Source of the DNA: Bacteroidota bacterium
GTDB lineage: Bacteria > Bacteroidota > Ignavibacteria > UBA10030 > UBA8401
NCBI GenBank assembly: GCA_030679145.1
Contig: JAUXTU010000121.1
Span: 1-64,000, forward strand
Length of the DNA stretch: 64,000 bases
Direction: 5' to 3'
In this document: positions 41,681-50,618 of the stretch, one piece after another
How positions within the stretch are numbered: position 1 is the first letter of the stretch
Layout of the letters: each line of letters begins with the position of its first letter
Notes under the pieces: model-generated
What the model was told of the DNA's origin: nothing
The model's database searches: none
What the model saw: only the letters and a program-made list of their open reading frames with translations
Program-made: the position numbers and the translations under genes

Positions 41681-42004
41681 ATGAAACCAGTAGAAGTAAC
41701 AGATGGAAATTTTAAGATCGAAGTGTTGGACTCTCAAACTCCTGTCCTCGTTGATTTTTGGGCAACGTGGTGTGGTCCGTGCAAGATGATCGCGCCGATT
41801 ATTGAAGAACTTGCCGGTGAATATCAAGGTAAAATGAAGTTTGGTAAACTTGATGTGGACTCCAATCCTCAGATTTCAATGCAGTTTGGAATTCGAAGTA
41901 TTCCAACAATGCTTGTTTTCAAAGGCGGAAAAGTTGTTGATCAAATAGTCGGTGCAATGCCTAAGAAGAGTTTGATCGAAAAGATCAGCCATCATATGAA
42001 TTAA
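41681..42004 (+). CDS. trxA: Thioredoxin
   Basis: 107 residues with the redox site WCGPCK (Cys31 and Cys34) and the cis-Pro loop in IRSIPTML. It is a standard-length cytoplasmic thioredoxin reducing protein disulfides. AAGGAG (41670-41675) lies five bases upstream of the ATG. A strong terminator follows. Confidence 0.97.
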   Translation: MKPVEVTDGNFKIEVLDSQTPVLVDFWATWCGPCKMIAPIIEELAGEYQGKMKFGKLDVDSNPQISMQFGIRSIPTMLVFKGGKVVDQIVGAMPKKSLIEKISHHMN

Positions 42005-42136: not shown

Positions 42137-43453
42137 ATGGCAGAAAAACCATTCATATCGAACCAAAGAAGACCAATACAGCGGAAACCAGATAATTCAA
42201 CTTCCTCTATTTTCGGAAATAAGAGCAATAAGAAACCCGGTTCTTCCCAAACTGCTTTTCGTAAGAAAAAAGTTTTTCGATATAGTGTCCGCAGAGGTGC
42301 AAAAACTATCGAGGGTTTCCAAAATGCGTACAGTGCTGATGAAGTAAAACGGAACCTTGTTAGGCTTGGATTCAATGTAAAGTACGTCCGTCGCCATTAT
42401 GAATTTCAGCTTCATGCATCAAGCACAGAAATTGTTAGTTTTGTAACGACCAGTGCGCGATTGCTGGAACAAAAAATTCCATATAGCGAAGTGCTTCAAA
42501 TCATGGCGAACAATGCCAAGGATCGTTACCTGAAAGGTGCGCTGAGGAATATTATCTTAGATCTTAAAAATGGTGTTGATTCAAAAGATGCCTTTATCAA
42601 ACAAGAAAAAGTATTCGGCGAACATGTGGCTTTAATGCTTGGAATCGCATCAAAAAGCGGAGAGATGACAGCGATTTTTAAGAGTGTAGCAATATTGGTT
42701 GAACGGCAAACGGAGTTTAAAAAAGGTTTAATAAGCTCTCTTATTATGCCCGCCATAACCTCCCTTACAGTATTAGGTGCTATTATTTTTTACGCAGTAT
42801 ATCTCGTTCCCAAAATGATGGCGATGTTGGGACCAATGATGGAAACAACTCCGCCGCTTACTGCGGCAACGATGATCTTCAGTGAATTTTTAAAAGAGAA
42901 TTATGTTTGGATGTCAATTCTTATGGTTCTTGGTCTTGGCAGTTTTTATGCATATTTAATGACTGAAAATGGAAAACTTGCACGCGATAAGTATATTATT
43001 AAAATACCATATATTGGAAATATTTTGCGAAGCACAAGTACGGAAATATTTTGTCGTGTGTTAAGTATCTTATATACATCATCAAGCGAAAATGTGGATG
43101 CAATTCAAATTGCTGCCGATGCAAGCGGAAGTTCATATCTTTCTTACCGGATAAGGATGGTAACAATCCCCAGTATGCTCAGATATGGAACCGATCTTGG
43201 CAAGGCATTGAATGCGGCAGAATTTTTCCCGGATGTTTTTGTCTCTCGATTTAGCACAGCTACCGAAACAGGTGCTGTAAAAGATACCGCATTGCAGGTT
43301 GCAGATTTTTATCAGTTGGAAAATCAATTTTCGATGAAGAACTTGATGAGTGTTATTGAGATTTCTATAACAATCGTCATTATGGCGGCATTAGTATTCT
43401 TAACACTTCTTTCGACAGAGACTGCTTCGTTGAATATACAACCAAGCATGTAA
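42137..43453 (+). CDS. Type II secretion/type IV pilus inner-membrane platform protein (GspF/PilC-like)
   Basis: 438 residues. After a 45-residue basic, Ser/Asn-rich cytoplasmic extension comes a GspF start (FRYSVRRGAKTIEGFQNAYSADEV), then two T2SF repeats (ARLLEQKIPYSEVLQIMA ~residues 97-114 and CRVLSILYTSSSENVDAI ~305-322). Three transmembrane helices lie near residues 205-225, 255-275 and 410-430. It should be the membrane platform on which the ATPase of the next gene acts. The extended N-terminus is unusual. Confidence 0.9.
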   Translation: MAEKPFISNQRRPIQRKPDNSTSSIFGNKSNKKPGSSQTAFRKKKVFRYSVRRGAKTIEGFQNAYSADEVKRNLVRLGFNVKYVRRHYEFQLHASSTEIVSFVTTSARLLEQKIPYSEVLQIMANNAKDRYLKGALRNIILDLKNGVDSKDAFIKQEKVFGEHVALMLGIASKSGEMTAIFKSVAILVERQTEFKKGLISSLIMPAITSLTVLGAIIFYAVYLVPKMMAMLGPMMETTPPLTAATMIFSEFLKENYVWMSILMVLGLGSFYAYLMTENGKLARDKYIIKIPYIGNILRSTSTEIFCRVLSILYTSSSENVDAIQIAADASGSSYLSYRIRMVTIPSMLRYGTDLGKALNAAEFFPDVFVSRFSTATETGAVKDTALQVADFYQLENQFSMKNLMSVIEISITIVIMAALVFLTLLSTETASLNIQPSM

Positions 43454-43479
43454 TTGTCTTTTGAACTAAGGAAAAAAAT

Positions 43480-45276
43480 ATGTCAGAACAACAGGTTTCC
43501 TCATTCAAAAAATCACTCACGTCGGTATTCCTTGAAAAAGGGATCGTTGATGAAATTACGTTACGCAGAGCGGAAGAGGTTCTGAGCAAGGAAGGATCTC
43601 GCTCAAGAAATCAATTGCTTCATATATTAATCGATCAATTCAAGATCAGCAGAGATCTTTTATTCGAAGAGGCTGCACGATTCTATTCATTTCGTGTTCT
43701 GGATATTACAAGAGAATCCATGGATGATGGAGTGATTGGATTTATCCGCAAAGAATTGCAAACCCTTCCGTTGTATGTCAGGGAGCTCGCTATTGAAAAC
43801 AAAGCGCTTCCATATAAAATAGACACACTCAAGGAAGGGCGATTATTGATCATCACTCCCGATCCGACAAATCCGGGAATCTATAATATTGCTCGTTCGT
43901 TCAATAACAAAAAATTTGAAATATGTTATGTCCCTCAATCCCAATGGGATGAAATATGGAATCGGGTAAGTATTGACAAAGCAATTTATAAGGATAGAGA
44001 ATCTGAATTACGTGATGAAGGTTTTGTACAGGATGAGGAAGAGGACAGTGAAAAATTTGAACAAGCGATCGATGAAGAAATCAGCAGAAGCGGTCTTGTC
44101 ACGTTAATAGAAAGTATTTTTGTTGATGCTGTGCGGGTTGGTGCCAGTGATATCCACGTTCTTCCCAGAGGAGAAAAGATAACGGAATTCTATTTCCGAG
44201 TTGATGGAAAACTTTCGCGTTGGTATACTCATACGGAAACACGTGCTGAAGCAGTGGCTGCTGTGGTTAAAGACCGTGCTAAAAATTTAGACCGATTTGA
44301 ACGTAACTTAGCCCAGGATGGTTTTGCGCAATTAATTATTGATAAAAAAACCATTCGTTTTCGACTATCTGTTATTCCTGTTATTGGGCAGGAGCTAAAA
44401 AGTAAATTCGAATCAATTGTTATCCGCGTACTTCGCGAAATGAATGTTGGCAAGAGAATTGAAGATTTAGGTTTTGATCCATACAGTGAAGATCGAATAA
44501 AACGCGCGATCAAAAAACCACATGGAATTGTTATTGTAACCGGACCGACAGGAAGCGGAAAAAGCACAACACTTGTTGCAGCATTGCGAACTATCATGGA
44601 TCCTTCATTGAATATTATCACAGTAGAAGATCCGGTTGAATATTTTATTGATGGAGCTCGACAAGTAAAACTAAACCCCAAATTGGATTTTGACGATGCA
44701 CTTCGTGCTATTTTACGTCATGACCCTGATATTGTAATGGTCGGTGAGATGCGCGATAAGACCACCGCAGAAATTGCCATTAAACTCGCTAACACGGGTC
44801 ATCTCACTCTTTCCACGCTTCACACCAACGATGCGCCAAGTGCACTTTCGAGATTGTTTAAAATGGGTGTGGAACCATTTTTGATCGCCTATAGTATCAA
44901 TATTGTTGTGGCTCAACGATTGATTAGAAAATTGTGCCCGCGCTGTAAAGCTGTGGTGAAAGAAGTGGATTATCCCATCTTGAGAAAATTTGGTATGTCC
45001 GAAGAAGAGATCAGTAAACATACAGTGTATCGTGCAATGGGATGCATTGATTGTCTGAAAGGATACAAAGGAAGAACCGCAATTCACGAAGCACTTTATT
45101 TTACAAAAGAGATTCGGCAATTAGTTTTGGATGCGGGATCGTCGATTAATGAAGAAGAACTAAGACAAGCCGGAATAAAGAATGGAATGATCACTCTTCG
45201 TGAACGTGCATTAGAATTGTTGAAAGCAGGAATAACATCTATTGATGAAGTAACTACAGTTACAAGTGATGATTAA
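43480..45276 (+). CDS. Type II secretion/type IV pilus assembly ATPase (GspE/PilB-like)
   Basis: 598 residues. The N-terminal MshEN-like region (VDEITLRRAEEVL) is followed by the ATPase core: Walker A GPTGSGKSTT near residues 355-364, Walker B-like region DPDIVMVGEMRD, His box TLSTLHTND, and a tetracysteine zinc knuckle (CPRCK and CIDC). This points to an assembly ATPase (GspE/PilB) rather than PilT, as a zinc knuckle and long N-domain are present. It would power pseudopilus or pilus polymerisation with the preceding GspF-like protein. Confidence 0.93.
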   Translation: MSEQQVSSFKKSLTSVFLEKGIVDEITLRRAEEVLSKEGSRSRNQLLHILIDQFKISRDLLFEEAARFYSFRVLDITRESMDDGVIGFIRKELQTLPLYVRELAIENKALPYKIDTLKEGRLLIITPDPTNPGIYNIARSFNNKKFEICYVPQSQWDEIWNRVSIDKAIYKDRESELRDEGFVQDEEEDSEKFEQAIDEEISRSGLVTLIESIFVDAVRVGASDIHVLPRGEKITEFYFRVDGKLSRWYTHTETRAEAVAAVVKDRAKNLDRFERNLAQDGFAQLIIDKKTIRFRLSVIPVIGQELKSKFESIVIRVLREMNVGKRIEDLGFDPYSEDRIKRAIKKPHGIVIVTGPTGSGKSTTLVAALRTIMDPSLNIITVEDPVEYFIDGARQVKLNPKLDFDDALRAILRHDPDIVMVGEMRDKTTAEIAIKLANTGHLTLSTLHTNDAPSALSRLFKMGVEPFLIAYSINIVVAQRLIRKLCPRCKAVVKEVDYPILRKFGMSEEEISKHTVYRAMGCIDCLKGYKGRTAIHEALYFTKEIRQLVLDAGSSINEEELRQAGIKNGMITLRERALELLKAGITSIDEVTTVTSDD

Positions 45277-45296
45277 ACAAAGATTGGTTCTGTACT

Positions 45297-45887
45297 ATGG
45301 GTCTTGGTCAAACAATGTTATCTATTATGTTTCTTGTATTACTCACAATTGCTGTGGTTAATGGGAATAGACTGATTATTGATAAAGAAGAAAGTTATTA
45401 CAAAAACCAGGCATACCAAGAAGCAAGTATTTTAGCAAATAATCTTCTCTCTGAAATAGTTTCAAAAAAATTTGATCACAATGTTGATACCAACGCTATC
45501 GGTTTACCAGATTCAAGCGTCTTTAGTTCTACTATGAAGACTGAGACTTTCTGGGAGTGGCAAAATGTGACCGAAGGGATGTCGAGTAATTTGCTTGATT
45601 ATAAAACATCAAGACCGTTTAATTCACAGAATGTTTCAGCCTTTAATGATGTTGATGACTATAATACTTATGTTCGAAATATTGATATAAAGCTCAATGG
45701 AAGAATTACACAAACTTTAACTAAATATACATTACAAGTAAGAGTATATTATGTACAGCGGGGAAATGAAGATGTTTATCAAACGAACAAGTCATATCTT
45801 AAAAGAATTGATGTTACGGTTACAGATTCAAAAGGGTATTTAACAAAACCGCTTAATTTTAGTACTATAAAAACATTTGGGTACTAA
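45297..45887 (+). CDS. Pilin-like protein 1 (unclassified)
   Basis: 196 residues starting MGLGQTMLSIMFLVLLTIAVV: only two or three residues precede a hydrophobic helix that continues into a polar helix (YYKNQAYQEASILANNLLSE), the overall shape of a pilin-type stalk. But there is no basic leader with GF cleavage site and no Glu5. It lies 20 bases after the ATPase gene. I assign it to the module by shape and position, not by family match. Confidence 0.6.
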   Translation: MGLGQTMLSIMFLVLLTIAVVNGNRLIIDKEESYYKNQAYQEASILANNLLSEIVSKKFDHNVDTNAIGLPDSSVFSSTMKTETFWEWQNVTEGMSSNLLDYKTSRPFNSQNVSAFNDVDDYNTYVRNIDIKLNGRITQTLTKYTLQVRVYYVQRGNEDVYQTNKSYLKRIDVTVTDSKGYLTKPLNFSTIKTFGY

Positions 45888-45893
45888 ACTATT

Positions 45894-46487
45894 ATGGGAA
45901 TAATTTTTGATATTTTAGGCTCATTTATTGTCCGCGCTGCTATTGTTGGAATATTACTCCAATTAATGATAACAATGAGCGATGCTCTCTACCGTTATAC
46001 TGAAAGAGTAGCATTAAATGATGACATCATTAGCGTTGCTCATGTTATTTCTTCTGATCTAAAAAATGTGGGATACAAAACTTATAAAGGATTTTACACA
46101 GTAACCAGTAGCAGTAGTAATACTGATGTAAGGTTTGCAGTTGATTCAAATTCTACGACCGGAATAATTGTCTACATTAGATATTATTTGAGCAGTGCAT
46201 ATTCAGCACCGTATTCCCATTTAAAATCAATAAACAGAGATTCTATTTATGGGTCAACAACTGTAAATACTCTGGAAGTGGCAAGAAATGTAAGCAGATT
46301 TAGGTTTAATTTTTATGATGCAAGCGGTGTCTCAACTACGATCACCACTGCGGGCGTAATTCGTTCCGTTAATGTTAATATTGAAATGGATTCAAAAGAT
46401 AAATTGGTAGGAGTAATTGATAAAGCTTCAAACGTGACAGCTCAAAAAGTTTCTTGGGAACAACAATTTTTCCCCGAAAATTTGTAA
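45894..46487 (+). CDS. Pilin-like protein 2 (unclassified)
   Basis: 197 residues: a hydrophobic N-terminal helix (MGIIFDILGSFIVRAAIVGILLQLM) followed by a PilW/GspJ-like pattern (ALNDDIISVAHVISSDLKNVGYK), then beta-rich sequence with Ser/Thr stretches. Six bases from the previous gene. No classical prepilin cleavage site. Most like a minor pseudopilin in layout. Confidence 0.6.
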   Translation: MGIIFDILGSFIVRAAIVGILLQLMITMSDALYRYTERVALNDDIISVAHVISSDLKNVGYKTYKGFYTVTSSSSNTDVRFAVDSNSTTGIIVYIRYYLSSAYSAPYSHLKSINRDSIYGSTTVNTLEVARNVSRFRFNFYDASGVSTTITTAGVIRSVNVNIEMDSKDKLVGVIDKASNVTAQKVSWEQQFFPENL

Positions 46488-46630
46488 ATGCCCTAAAAAT
46501 AAGATAAAAAAGTCTTTTTTAGCACGATATTTGTGTAAATATTAAATATTATAGAACTCTAATTTTTTCCTTGCCATGAACTTAGATTTTTGTTATTATA
46601 TACTCAGTAATTAATCAAATAAAGTAAATC

Positions 46631-47023
46631 ATGGGCAATTCAAAAATAATAATGTTATCTGGTATTTACCTTGTCTTAGGTATATACTCTATTAGTTACG
46701 AAGTTGCCGATGAAACAAGTTTTCAACTTTCAGCAAATACTGCTAATGAAATACAAGCAGGGCAGATTGCAAGATCCGGAATTTCGTTAGCGATGGAGAA
46801 TATGGGCACAGATTCTTTAGTGCACACATATAGTGATATTTCTGCTGAAGTGATGTGTGGTTCCGTTGTATATTCTGCATCGCAAATTGGTTTACCTTTA
46901 TCTCAATCAGAAATTACTTCTACAGGTACTTTTAATGATAAAACAGTTGTCGTAAAAGCTGTGTTTGTATATTATAATAATCGATGGAGAATAGATCGAT
47001 TATATATTCCCCCGACAGCGTAA
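46631..47023 (+). CDS. Pilin-like protein 3 (PilX/GspK-like layout)
   Basis: 130 residues: MGNSKIIMLSGIYLVLGIYSISY, then a polar helix with EIQAGQIARSGISLAMENM, similar in pattern to the ARSGIE helix of PilX/GspK proteins, and a short beta region. It is 143 bases after the previous gene, across an AT-rich gap with a weak A6/T6 hairpin (46505-46521). No classical prepilin site. Confidence 0.55.
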   Translation: MGNSKIIMLSGIYLVLGIYSISYEVADETSFQLSANTANEIQAGQIARSGISLAMENMGTDSLVHTYSDISAEVMCGSVVYSASQIGLPLSQSEITSTGTFNDKTVVVKAVFVYYNNRWRIDRLYIPPTA

Positions 47024-47190: not shown

Positions 47191-48687
47191 ATGATTGTCG
47201 TTAGCAATATAACATCATTTGTAAATTTATTTATGCATTTCGTTCTCTCAAAAAGTTCGATGCTTGTAGTTCTTTGTTGTGCTGTAATAATCGCAAATTC
47301 TCAGCCAACAGAATTTGTTCCAAAGAGCAGAAAAGAAATTCAAAAAGATAATATTACTGAACAAAAAGAACGAAAACGATTATCATCATCCGGTATACTC
47401 TCAATAACAAAAACAAAGTTCATCTATCGCTTTGGAAAAGTTGATAAAAATGGAGTGACAGAATTGTTGACTCGATATGATGGAAAAGGAAATAAGACAA
47501 AAGAAACATCCTTTAGTTCTTCTGATGGAAAAGTTGAATCAACAATTTTATATTCTTATGATAAAAATGGAAATCTCATTGAAGAACTAACGAAGAAAAA
47601 CGATGTTTCTACAAAAATTATTCACCGCTATAACGTGTCAAATTATAAAATTGAATCAGTATTCTATAAATCTGATGGTGCAGTTGAGAGAAAAATATCG
47701 TTTGTCTACGACGATTCAGGGTTACTGCTCGAAACGGTCGGTCGCTTAGATGATGGAAGAATATTTATGAAAGATTCATATCTATATGATGGGGAAGGTA
47801 ATGTTGTTGAGTTCAAAAATAATTCGAAGAAGTTTGTAATGCTGTATGACCAGTTTGGGAATAGTACTTCAATTTTGAAGTATAACAGATATTTTAAAGC
47901 ACAAGATAGTATTCAATTCAATCTTAATGAAATCTTTGCAATGAAATATGATCGCTCGGGAAATCTTGTTGAAGTGCGTTCTCTAAGACCGGATAGTACT
48001 TTGAAATTGAGAACAAAATATATTTTTAATGAATTTGATAAGGTAATTGAAGAAAAAGAATATACTGCTGAAAACAAATTGATCTATCTGCGAATGCTTA
48101 AGTATAACAAGAATCAAAATCTTACTGAAGAATCAGGTATTGATCGTGCTTTAAAGTTTAAGAGTATCTATAAATATGATTCACGAGGAAACAAAACCGA
48201 GTGGATATCCTATGATCAGATTAATGAACCTATTACCCTGACAAAATATTCTTTTGGACGGTATGCTGATGTTAATGCGCAAGGAAATCAAGTTAATTCA
48301 AAAGAATTTGATTCCCTTCTTGTAGGTGCCGGGGGTGATCCACTTGAAAAGAATGAGTTTTTTCAAATTTTAGGGTGCCGAATTATTGCACCTGATGGGA
48401 CATATCTCGGAATGGTTTTGGCTGATACGGCTAATCCTCAATCCATTGCTAATACTTGGGGGCAATATGGATTCAATCAATCGCAGACAAGTATTTTTAA
48501 TTCTACCATCCCATATGGCGGGGAAAATGGTTTGTTTAGTCCTTTTAACCCTGAAAGTCCCAGTCCGCCATCCATTTATAAAGATGGAAAATTTTATTCA
48601 TATTTTACAGAGAATGAAAACTTCCGTCCTCGTTTATCTCCGCGACTACTTGTTCAATTCTTAAAGACATTGTCACGTCAAAATTAA
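47191..48687 (+). CDS. Exported YD-repeat-like protein
   Basis: Up to 498 residues. The probable signal peptide ends near ANSQPTEFV; starts at 47191, 47233 or 47260 are all possible since none has a clear ribosome-binding site. Residues ~70-370 hold degenerate repeats of the form YDxxGNxxE (RYDGKGNKTKE, YSYDKNGNLIEE, YDRSGNLVEV, YDSRGNKTEW), as in RHS/YD or MORN-like beta repeats. The C-terminus has DGTYLGMV and a segment rich in NxxG/NPxSP turns (FSPFNPESPSPP). Function unknown; possibly surface-associated. Confidence 0.7.
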   Translation: MIVVSNITSFVNLFMHFVLSKSSMLVVLCCAVIIANSQPTEFVPKSRKEIQKDNITEQKERKRLSSSGILSITKTKFIYRFGKVDKNGVTELLTRYDGKGNKTKETSFSSSDGKVESTILYSYDKNGNLIEELTKKNDVSTKIIHRYNVSNYKIESVFYKSDGAVERKISFVYDDSGLLLETVGRLDDGRIFMKDSYLYDGEGNVVEFKNNSKKFVMLYDQFGNSTSILKYNRYFKAQDSIQFNLNEIFAMKYDRSGNLVEVRSLRPDSTLKLRTKYIFNEFDKVIEEKEYTAENKLIYLRMLKYNKNQNLTEESGIDRALKFKSIYKYDSRGNKTEWISYDQINEPITLTKYSFGRYADVNAQGNQVNSKEFDSLLVGAGGDPLEKNEFFQILGCRIIAPDGTYLGMVLADTANPQSIANTWGQYGFNQSQTSIFNSTIPYGGENGLFSPFNPESPSPPSIYKDGKFYSYFTENENFRPRLSPRLLVQFLKTLSRQN

Positions 48688-48854: not shown

Positions 48855-50618
48855 ATGCAGTACAAAAAACGAACACATACCGGTGGAGAACTTCGATCTT
48901 CACATATTGGACAAGTAGTGACGCTAACAGGCTGGGTGGATACTCGCAGAGATCTGGGTGGAGTGATTTTTATTGATTTACGTGATCGTTACGGAAAAAC
49001 CCAGATTGTCTTTAATCCTAAATTCAGCGAAACAATTTATTCGCTCGCAAAAGAACTTCGTACAGAGTTTGTCATTTCTGTGACAGGTAAAGTTGAAAAA
49101 CGTCCTGCCGGAACTGAGAATCCAAAATTAGGAACGGGAGATATCGACGTTTTGGTTGAAGAATTGACCATCATTAACAAAGCAGAAACAACACCGTTTC
49201 CAATTGATGATAAATTGGATACCAATGAAGACCTCCGCCTAAAATATCGCTATCTCGATCTTCGCAGAGCACCAATGCAGGCTAATCTACTGCTTCGTCA
49301 CCAGATGTATCAGATCACACGCAGATATTTTGATGAATTTAATTTTATTGAGGTGGAAACACCTGTGTTAATGAAAAGCACACCCGAAGGTGCACGTGAC
49401 TTTCTTGTTCCAAGTAGGATTAATCCGGGAAAATTTTATGCGTTGCCGCAATCTCCACAGACGTATAAACAAATTTTAATGGTGGCAGGGTATGATCGGT
49501 ATTTCCAGATCGTAAAATGTTTCCGTGATGAAGATCTTCGTGCCGATCGTCAGCTTGAGTTCACTCAAATTGATATTGAGATGTCGTTTGTTGATGAGAT
49601 TGATATTCAAACCATTGTTGAGGGTTTGATGAAGCGTTTCATGAAAGAGATTAAAGGAATTGATGTAACAACTCCTTTCCCGCGTCTTACATATAAAGAG
49701 GCGATGGAAGGATACGGAAGTGATAAACCGGATCTCCGTTTTGATCTGAAGTTTGCTGATTTTAGTGACATTGTAAAAGATTCCGGATTCAAAGTATTTG
49801 CAGAGAACGCAAAGAAGGGCGGAGTTGTTGCAGGATTTGCCGTTCCGGGCGGTGCAAGTTACACACGTAATCAAATGGATAATCTTGTTGATTTCACAAA
49901 ATCACTCGGCGTTGGCGGTCTTGCATACATTAAATTAACCGAAAAAGGAATTGATTCCGCCATTGAAAAATTCCTTGGGAATGAAATCTGCAAGCAGATC
50001 TGTGAGGCAGCTGGAGCAAAACCCGGTGATAATGTTTTGGTCGTTTCGGATGCATGGCAAAAAACGTACTCAACACTTGGTACGCTTCGGCTTGAAATTG
50101 CGAAACGTATGAACCTGATCGATGAGAACAAATGGAATTTGCATTGGGTTGTTGACTTTCCGATGTTCGATTATTCAGAAGAAGAAAAACGCCACGTTGC
50201 AATGCATCATCCCTTTACTGCGCCAAAACCTGAAGATCTTGCGCTGTTGGACACAGATCCGACAAAAGCACGCGCTCGTGCATACGATCTGGTGATGAAT
50301 GGAAATGAAGTTGCCGGCGGCAGTATCCGTATCTATGATTCTGCGATGCAAAGCAAAGTGTTTGGATTGCTTGGAATTGGTACGGAAGAAGCAAAAATGA
50401 AATTTGGATTTATGCTTGATGCATTCAAATACGGAGCGCCGCCGCATGGCGGAATTGCGTTTGGGTTTGATCGTCTTGCAATGCTATTTGCCGGCGTTAA
50501 ATCCATTCGTGATGTGATTGCATTTCCAAAAACGTCCAGCGGTATTTCATTGATGGACGATAATCCATCCGAAGTGGATAAAAAACAGTTGGATGAACTT
50601 CACATCAAATTGAAATAG
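48855..50618 (+). CDS. aspS: Aspartyl-tRNA synthetase
   Basis: 587 residues, bacterial type class IIb. An N-terminal OB anticodon-binding domain (VTLTGWVDTRRDLGGVIFIDLRD), the catalytic core (FRDEDLRADRQLEFTQIDIE motif 2) and GIAFGFDRLAML (motif 3) are present, with a GAD insertion domain between (~residues 290-410). It charges tRNA-Asp; because gatA is encoded nearby, a nondiscriminating form that also makes Asp-tRNA(Asn) is possible but cannot be told from sequence by eye. Confidence 0.97.
   Translation: MQYKKRTHTGGELRSSHIGQVVTLTGWVDTRRDLGGVIFIDLRDRYGKTQIVFNPKFSETIYSLAKELRTEFVISVTGKVEKRPAGTENPKLGTGDIDVLVEELTIINKAETTPFPIDDKLDTNEDLRLKYRYLDLRRAPMQANLLLRHQMYQITRRYFDEFNFIEVETPVLMKSTPEGARDFLVPSRINPGKFYALPQSPQTYKQILMVAGYDRYFQIVKCFRDEDLRADRQLEFTQIDIEMSFVDEIDIQTIVEGLMKRFMKEIKGIDVTTPFPRLTYKEAMEGYGSDKPDLRFDLKFADFSDIVKDSGFKVFAENAKKGGVVAGFAVPGGASYTRNQMDNLVDFTKSLGVGGLAYIKLTEKGIDSAIEKFLGNEICKQICEAAGAKPGDNVLVVSDAWQKTYSTLGTLRLEIAKRMNLIDENKWNLHWVVDFPMFDYSEEEKRHVAMHHPFTAPKPEDLALLDTDPTKARARAYDLVMNGNEVAGGSIRIYDSAMQSKVFGLLGIGTEEAKMKFGFMLDAFKYGAPPHGGIAFGFDRLAMLFAGVKSIRDVIAFPKTSSGISLMDDNPSEVDKKQLDELHIKLK

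Follow-up and report, generated by a model that had tools for sequence, protein, structure and literature searches.

Prepilins are defined by a class III signal peptide, and a peptidase step is needed before they can be assembled, as far as the parts of a review cited here go (PMC10191384). Here, we describe a locus that appears to depart from this rule. It lies in a stretch of 64,000 nucleotides (hereafter, the window), positions 1 to 64,000 of contig JAUXTU010000121.1 from a Bacteroidota bacterium of the class Ignavibacteria (assembly GCA_030679145.1). The genome comprises 3.83 Mb in 123 contigs, with the window lying on contig C104, and is scored 100% complete with 0.86% contamination. A five-gene operon at 42137–47023 encodes, in this order, a GspF/PilC platform protein, a PilB/GspE ATPase, and three small pilin-like proteins that we call p1, p2, and p3. 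Judging from sequence and predicted structure, the module probably belongs to a type IV filament branch of its own, in which pilins are made without a class III leader and assembled without a prepilin peptidase. Searches of open-licence literature listed no description of leaderless pilins.

Among the closest described systems is the type II secretion system (T2SS), with its minor pseudopilins GspI, GspJ, and GspK (EpsIJ, XcpVW). What is shared is the placement of three minor pilin genes behind F- and E-type genes, the predicted GspJ fold of p2, and an acidic residue in the register of Glu5. Unlike in the T2SS, there is no class III leader here, no GspO/PilD match, and no match of p1, p2, or p3 to any Pfam or NCBIfam family above the cut-off. 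The type IVa pilus (PilB, PilC, PilT, PilQ, PilA, and PilD) resembles a second locus of the same genome, on contig C58, which likewise encodes PilB, PilC, a PilT-like ATPase, and a secretin, together with major pilins that have a long N-terminal helix. However, these major pilins start with MGxQQ and lack both a leader and Glu5, the ATPases fall in separate clades, and 117 of the 129 class genomes with such pilins have no PilD match. Two further systems invite comparison: the MSH (mannose-sensitive hemagglutinin) pili, whose pilins keep their leader, and the T2SS of Cytophaga hutchinsonii, which belongs to the same phylum in the GTDB sense. MSH loci likewise have no prepilin peptidase gene, but MSH genomes carry the peptidase of another system, whereas most genomes here are without a match, going by the portion of the report cited (PMC6668835). 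The C. hutchinsonii T2SS likewise has divergent minor pseudopilins but, in the portion of that report cited, its cluster has its own Peptidase_A24 protein, CHU_3197 (PMC5553014).

The system most likely works like a canonical type IV pilus or T2SS. It has a PilB/GspE-type ATPase, a PilC/GspF-type platform, and, by prediction for p2, the pilin fold; a cleavable class III leader, a prepilin peptidase in the genome, and GspD in the locus were not found. We have not filed it under either canonical system because the class III signal peptide with its cleavable leader, the defining feature of the type IV filament superfamily, was tested for and is absent. The features of the locus are as follows.

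42137–43453, forward strand: inner-membrane platform protein of the GspF/PilC family, 438 amino acids; PF00482 (T2SSF), E 2.3e-22.
43480–45276, forward strand: extension ATPase of the PilB/GspE family, 598 amino acids; PF00437 (T2SSE), E 4.7e-106.
45297–45887, forward strand: p1, putative minor pilin, leaderless, start MGLGQTML; same start in homologues.
45894–46487, forward strand: p2, putative minor pilin, leaderless, start MGIIFDIL; predicted GspJ/PilW-like fold.
45909–45911, forward strand: codon of p2 Asp6, probable counterpart of pilin Glu5 (mature Asp5 if Met is removed); invariant in 37/37 aligned homologues.
46631–47023, forward strand: p3, putative minor pilin, leaderless, start MGNSKIIML; one codon from stop to ATG, Ser4-Lys5 invariant.
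47191–48687, forward strand: YD/RHS-repeat protein with a signal-peptide-like N-terminus (by eye); PF05593, E 6.5e-9.

The original prediction, made from the letters of the window, had described five open reading frames (ORFs) here: a GspF-like platform, a GspE/PilB-like ATPase, and three small proteins starting with MG. All five are present, the profile matches agree with the first two assignments, and the small proteins do begin MGLGQT, MGIIFD, and MGNSKI. In NCBIfam, the platform matches the GspF model TIGR02120 with an E-value of 2.3e-42 and the ATPase matches the PilB model TIGR02538 with 9.6e-130, both under the cut-offs of those models, and the ATPase sequence shows a Walker A motif (GPTGSGKST) and a CxxC...CxxC pair. 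For p1, p2, and p3, the rows below the cut-off were DUF5108 (E 3e-4) and PHO4 (0.02) for p3 and NF047488 (0.03) for p2, and 38 p1 homologues compared with Pfam and NCBIfam gave chance rows alone.

The claim of the original prediction that the pilin-like proteins have neither a basic leader nor a normal prepilin site holds. Between the upstream stop and the ATG there are 8 in-frame codons for p1, 2 for p2, and 1 for p3, and none of them is ATG, GTG, or TTG. With stops only two and one codons upstream, p2 and p3 could not accommodate a leader, and reconsidering the start sites brought no normal prepilin motif to light. To extend this beyond the window, we took 119 sequences, the window itself, and the loci and compared their stop-to-stop ORFs with profiles of p1, p2, p3, and the second locus's major pilin, which gave 257 hits (82, 84, 50, and 41, respectively). 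We discarded duplicates, hits whose start fell beyond model position 5, ORFs with an open 5' end, and those containing X, which left 193 distinct ORFs (p1, 58; p2, 62; p3, 37; major pilin, 36). In 179 of these, there is no in-frame ATG, GTG, or TTG between the upstream stop and the start, and in 99 the stop lies five or fewer codons upstream. Lys or Arg at residues 2–8 occurs in none of the 58 p1, 62 p2, and 36 major pilin sequences, and in 32 of the 37 p3 sequences.

A leader could in principle be made by another route, if the start had been mis-called, if translation began further upstream at a codon other than ATG, or through a frameshift. An upstream in-frame ATG, GTG, or TTG is present in 14 of the 193 ORFs, and when CTG, ATT, ATC, and ATA are also allowed, 93 (including the 14) have some upstream start. 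We nevertheless consider this very improbable. The two codons and one codon upstream of p2 and p3 in the window, and the five or fewer in 99 ORFs of the census, speak against it, conservation is apparent at the start of the chain, across classes, but not in the residues upstream of it, and several canonical pilins of class genomes with PilD show leaders of 9–15 residues. The same gene calling thus finds leaders where they exist, since canonical leader-bearing pilins were seen beside PilD and in Cloacimonadota.

Profile searches of the window's genome for a prepilin peptidase with PF01478 and PF06750 gave no matches; in 14 control genomes, PF01478 was positive in 12 and PF06750 in 8. The N_methyl profile PF07963 also had no match in this genome. 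For the class, we took the samples of separate searches as one set of 245 genomes, as their handles and number agree. PF01478 matched in 12 of the 245, N_methyl in 18, and the leaderless major pilin profile in 129; all 12 PF01478-positive genomes are among both the 18 and the 129. Seven single-contig genomes (G088, G158, G163, G190, G199, G210, and G212) are among the 117 that are leaderless-positive and PF01478-negative. We also considered mutual exclusion of leaderless pilins and PilD and rejected it, as all 12 PilD-positive class genomes hold both; in the phylum sample of 395 genomes, 129 have the leaderless major pilin, 51 have PF01478, and 15 have both, against 16.7 expected by chance. 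Where PilD is present in the class, it keeps canonical company. Of 15 PilD loci read in the 12 genomes, 13 (all but L062 and L063) adjoin a canonical leader-bearing pilin, for example GFSLTELMVVLVIIG, and each genome has such a pilin beside PilD at one or more loci. Two of these genomes, G016 (L153, L167) and G110 (L156, L168), were also read at their leaderless locus. A Geobacter-like pilin reported in one Ignavibacteriales genome, in the part of that study cited (PMC7399161), agrees with the N_methyl matches in the class.

An AlphaFold2 model of p2, built with 37 sequences, has a mean predicted local distance difference test score (pLDDT) of 79.9 and shows a helix at residues 2–57 and a beta head. 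With this model, every one of the first 17 Foldseek rows was a chain from a T2SS pseudopilin entry in which GspJ is present; the best, 5bw0_A (E 7.5e-4), was the sole row below 0.001. From entry names and chain lengths, the matched chains appear to be the GspJ ones (3nje is XcpW alone). VIA-align gave a Z-score of 13.7 for a Thermus pilin-like protein, 13.5 for 3cfi_E (from an EpsI:EpsJ entry; 140 residues, 2.9 Å), and 11.4 for 3ci0_J, and the next unrelated chain scored 4.6. Structure prediction had been proposed alongside the original prediction as a check on all three small proteins; p2 was the one folded, and it is predicted to have a GspJ-like pilin fold, in which a long helix at the N-terminus precedes a beta head. 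The first aligned residues of model and entry are 32/31 for 3cfi, 33/32 for 2ret, 36/35 for 3nje, and 40/39 for 3ci0. We take these entries to number the mature chain; if so, residue n of the model pairs with mature residue n-1, and Asp6 of p2 would therefore correspond to Glu5. Other alignments were offset by +5 (5vtm, 6utu) and +4 (5g23/5g24), which would presumably fit precursor numbering, by 0 (9a1f_S), and by +12 (5bw0_G), which fits neither. In an hhalign comparison, residues 4–58 of p2 aligned with 10–64 of the K-12 GspJ precursor, with Asp6 on Glu, though the match is weak (P 0.018). The sole invariant columns in the 37 aligned p2 homologues, from two phyla, are Met1 and Asp6.

Methionine aminopeptidase removes the initiator Met before small residues, and Met removal is expected in p2 because its residue 2 is Gly. 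Consequently, the absence of Glu5 noted in the original prediction is true in raw numbering but not for p2, where Asp at Met+5 becomes residue 5 once Met is removed. We assessed this in the 84 members of the p1 and p2 families that have an acid among residues 2–9 (22 p1, all from Cloacimonadota, and 62 p2). Where residue 2 is small, the acid lies at Met+5 in 49, Met+4 in 4, and Met+7 in 6; where Met is expected to be retained, it lies at Met+4 in 19 and Met+5 in 6. With the aminopeptidase rule applied, 68 of 84 acids fall at position 5 (p2, 50/62; Cloacimonadota p1, 18/22), although 16 fall elsewhere, and the 84 make up two families of related sequences, so that the counts are not independent. 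The Cloacimonadota proteins reach position 5 by different routes: p1 is mostly MNxxEM, with Met kept, and p2 mostly M[GS]xxxD, with Met removed. Overall, the pattern is suggestive rather than a test on independent cases. No acidic residue occurs near the N-terminus in the remaining 36 p1, any of the 37 p3, or any of the 36 major pilins. The p3 family differs from the other three in being basic near its start, with Ser4-Lys5 invariant in 13/13 aligned sequences, and this basic residue might pair with the acidic residue of a neighbor at the tip.

These data also bear on the idea that normal processing is kept, with Met-Gly serving as a two-residue leader and a peptidase, either diverged or unrelated, cleaving behind the Gly. 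Gly2 is found in 36/36 major pilins, resembling Gly(-1) of canonical prepilins, and the 18 PilD-bearing genomes among the 22 Cloacimonadota genomes would have an enzyme at hand. On the other side are the absence of PF01478 and PF06750 matches from the window's genome and of PF01478 matches from most leaderless-positive class genomes. Residue 2 of p1 and p2 varies (Gly, Ser, Asn, Thr, His, Ala, Val, and Ile), a cut after it would place the p2 Asp at position 4 rather than 5, and the four p2 fold alignments above are offset by one, not two. We regard such a leader as unlikely. The original prediction had left the choice between very short, noncanonical leaders and insertion without cleavage by an unusual assembly system. 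Uncleaved insertion is favored, and the short leader less so, because p2 and p3 leave no space for more than two and one leader residues, the genome has no peptidase match, and the pattern recurs in relatives and in a second phylum.

The second locus, on C58, shows what a more complete machine of this kind may look like. It encodes two leaderless major pilins (MGQQQLLLIILGVIIVGIAVAVG), GspF, PilB, a PilT-like ATPase, and the sole secretin match of the genome, as well as p1-, p2-, and p3-like proteins that start MGLGQTLL, MGSQVVLDLIS, and MGRTAIFM. Two further proteins occupy the places of PilM and PilO and, though without a Pfam match over the cut-off, are probably their counterparts. More major pilins are encoded on C18 (MGQQQLLLLILGAI) and C61. 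On C61, two PilB-like ATPases cluster with a diverged MGQQQQ pilin and with response-regulator-like and zinc-ribbon-like proteins recognized by eye (L038:5007-12080); an ATPase of this cluster (L001) falls outside the leaderless ATPase clade.

C58 is also pertinent to whether a filament is made at all. The proteins of the window could be derived from pilins but no longer form filaments, serving instead as an ATPase-driven scaffold or sensor that is anchored in the membrane. This would fit with the lack of a major pilin, secretin, or PilT gene beside the window module and with a relative (L043) in which no p3 was found beside p2. However, the platform and ATPase are intact and conserved, C58 unites major pilins, a PilT-like ATPase, and a secretin with p1-, p2-, and p3-like proteins, and in Cloacimonadota the major pilin, F, E, p1, p2, and p3 genes stand in that order at all six loci read. 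A scaffold or sensor role therefore seems improbable to us, if somewhat less so than a hidden upstream start.

Leaderless pilins recur in other genera, in other classes of the phylum, and in a second phylum. Gene order varies within the class; for example, in L078 and L080, p2 and p3 precede F and E, while p1 follows them. Outside the class, ten stretches from nine genomes of four families (f39, f42, f43, and f57) hold 17 major pilins, of which 16 start with MGQQQ and one with MANKE; the latter is a paralogue (MANKELLL, L174:7045-7410) with Glu at Met+4. In 22 Cloacimonadota genomes chosen by their ATPase, canonical N-methyl pilins were found in 20 and PilD in 18. Five Cloacimonadota PilD neighborhoods were read (L139–L143), with no canonical pilin gene in any of them. 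An ATPase tree was built with FastTree from 101 sequences and 392 columns, after 21 of 122 were dropped as truncated, and labeled by neighboring genes; L167, flagged both ways, was set as leaderless, its canonical flag being a PII-like protein. A PilB-type clade (support 0.92) holds 55 ATPases, 47 labeled leaderless and 8 unlabeled. A separate PilB-type group (0.923) of 11, 8 labeled canonical and 3 unlabeled, holds K-12 GspE and the canonical GspE of the class. The PilT-type clade (0.999) holds 27, 19 labeled leaderless and 8 unlabeled, apart from 8 canonical ones (0.954). Going by this tree, the ATPases of the leaderless machines are one lineage, with separate PilB-type and PilT-type clades. 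The window ATPase (L002) falls in a 22-member sub-clade of the leaderless clade that includes neither Cloacimonadota nor the outside-class stretches.

Several observations weigh against a leaderless, peptidase-free filament and should be considered together. The window module has no adjacent major pilin, secretin, or retraction ATPase. Minor pilin matches occur in only two of the ten outside-class stretches (L173 and L181), with partly different starts, and in three single-contig class genomes, inspection by eye of the surroundings of the major pilins revealed no minor pilins. In Cloacimonadota, PilD may act on the leaderless pilins. The pilin fold of the major pilin is held with moderate confidence: its model (L091; pLDDT 78.8) gave no Foldseek row below E 0.001, and the first rows were not pilins. 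With VIA, rows 1–7 were all type IV pilins, but their Z-scores of 8.1–7.1 are in the range that the tool calls possibly just a common arrangement. The major pilin has no Glu5 and in most alignments runs two residues longer in register than canonical pilins. We had considered that it becomes canonical after Met removal, with Gly22 on Pro22, but dropped this since most fold and profile alignments are offset by three from Met; 1dzo gives an offset of one by VIA.

Profile comparisons of the pilins gave weak matches at best. The major pilin profile found Geobacter geopilin domain 1 among the sequences of solved structures (E 0.0021 and 0.017), followed mostly by ribosomal protein L6, and p1, p2, and p3 found chance rows alone. 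Weak matches among 30 major pilins were to ComP_DUS (4 sequences; best E 1.8e-4) and, for single sequences, to the GspH (0.0087) and GspG (0.13) models. Against the five K-12 pseudopilins, hhalign ranked GspJ first for p2 and GspG first for the major pilin (P 0.012), both weakly, placed GspH (0.02) ahead of GspI (0.05) for p1, also weakly, and matched none of the five with p3. Gene order and motif would make p1 GspI/PilV-like, and position and the absence of an acidic residue would make p3 GspK/PilX-like.

The surroundings of the operon are partly conserved as well. Together with the YD-repeat gene, it is flanked by trxA (41681–42004) and aspS (48855–50618; named by eye). The same gene order between trxA and aspS is found in L067/L039, and L043 has the same order on the aspS side; its contig ends at GspF, and p3 was sought beside p2 there and not found. 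Homologues of p2 are present in 32 of 60 relatives. A YD/RHS-repeat ORF also lies directly downstream of the pilin genes in L039/L067 and L043, and we speculate that this protein could be a substrate or a (tip) partner of the pilin module. The original prediction had also noted that no prepilin peptidase, GspD, or GspC is adjacent. This stands for the peptidase and GspD, with no such gene among the ORFs around the operon; GspC, GspL, and GspM were not noticed at the locus, though no profile search for them was made.

Taken at its widest, our interpretation is that the whole branch, spanning several classes of the phylum as well as Cloacimonadota, has dispensed with the leader, the prepilin peptidase, and N-methylation. 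We favor this wider claim less firmly than that for the module. The pilins would be born mature, with an N-terminus set by methionine aminopeptidase, and in the major pilins a Gly-x-Gln-Gln polar run would replace the Glu5 salt bridge at the filament core. In our main reading of the module, each pilin would insert into the inner membrane N-in via its N-terminal helix, and ordinary methionine aminopeptidase would remove Met ahead of a small residue 2 (Gly, Ser, Thr, Ala, or Val). At that point the chain would already be mature, and in p2 the acidic residue would occupy position 5. An I-J-K-type tip complex of p1, p2, and p3 may start the filament, which the PilB ATPase on the GspF platform would push out. 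Other loci would provide, in trans, the single secretin and the major pilin, of which the genome has further copies outside the window module.

If true, a widespread branch that skips the leader would show that leader cleavage is not essential for type IV filament assembly, and it would reveal pilins that leader-based and Pfam searches miss. It would also account for Melioribacter roseus, for which pilB, pilC, pilQ, and pilT were present but pilA and pilD were not found, according to the part of the genome report cited (PMC3534657). The single-contig class genome G190, which is probably this organism, carries two MGQQQ pilins, GspF, and two ATPases on its contig (C1). Finally, such a branch would raise the question of what the leader is really for, be it membrane targeting, holding subunits in reserve, or N-methylation.

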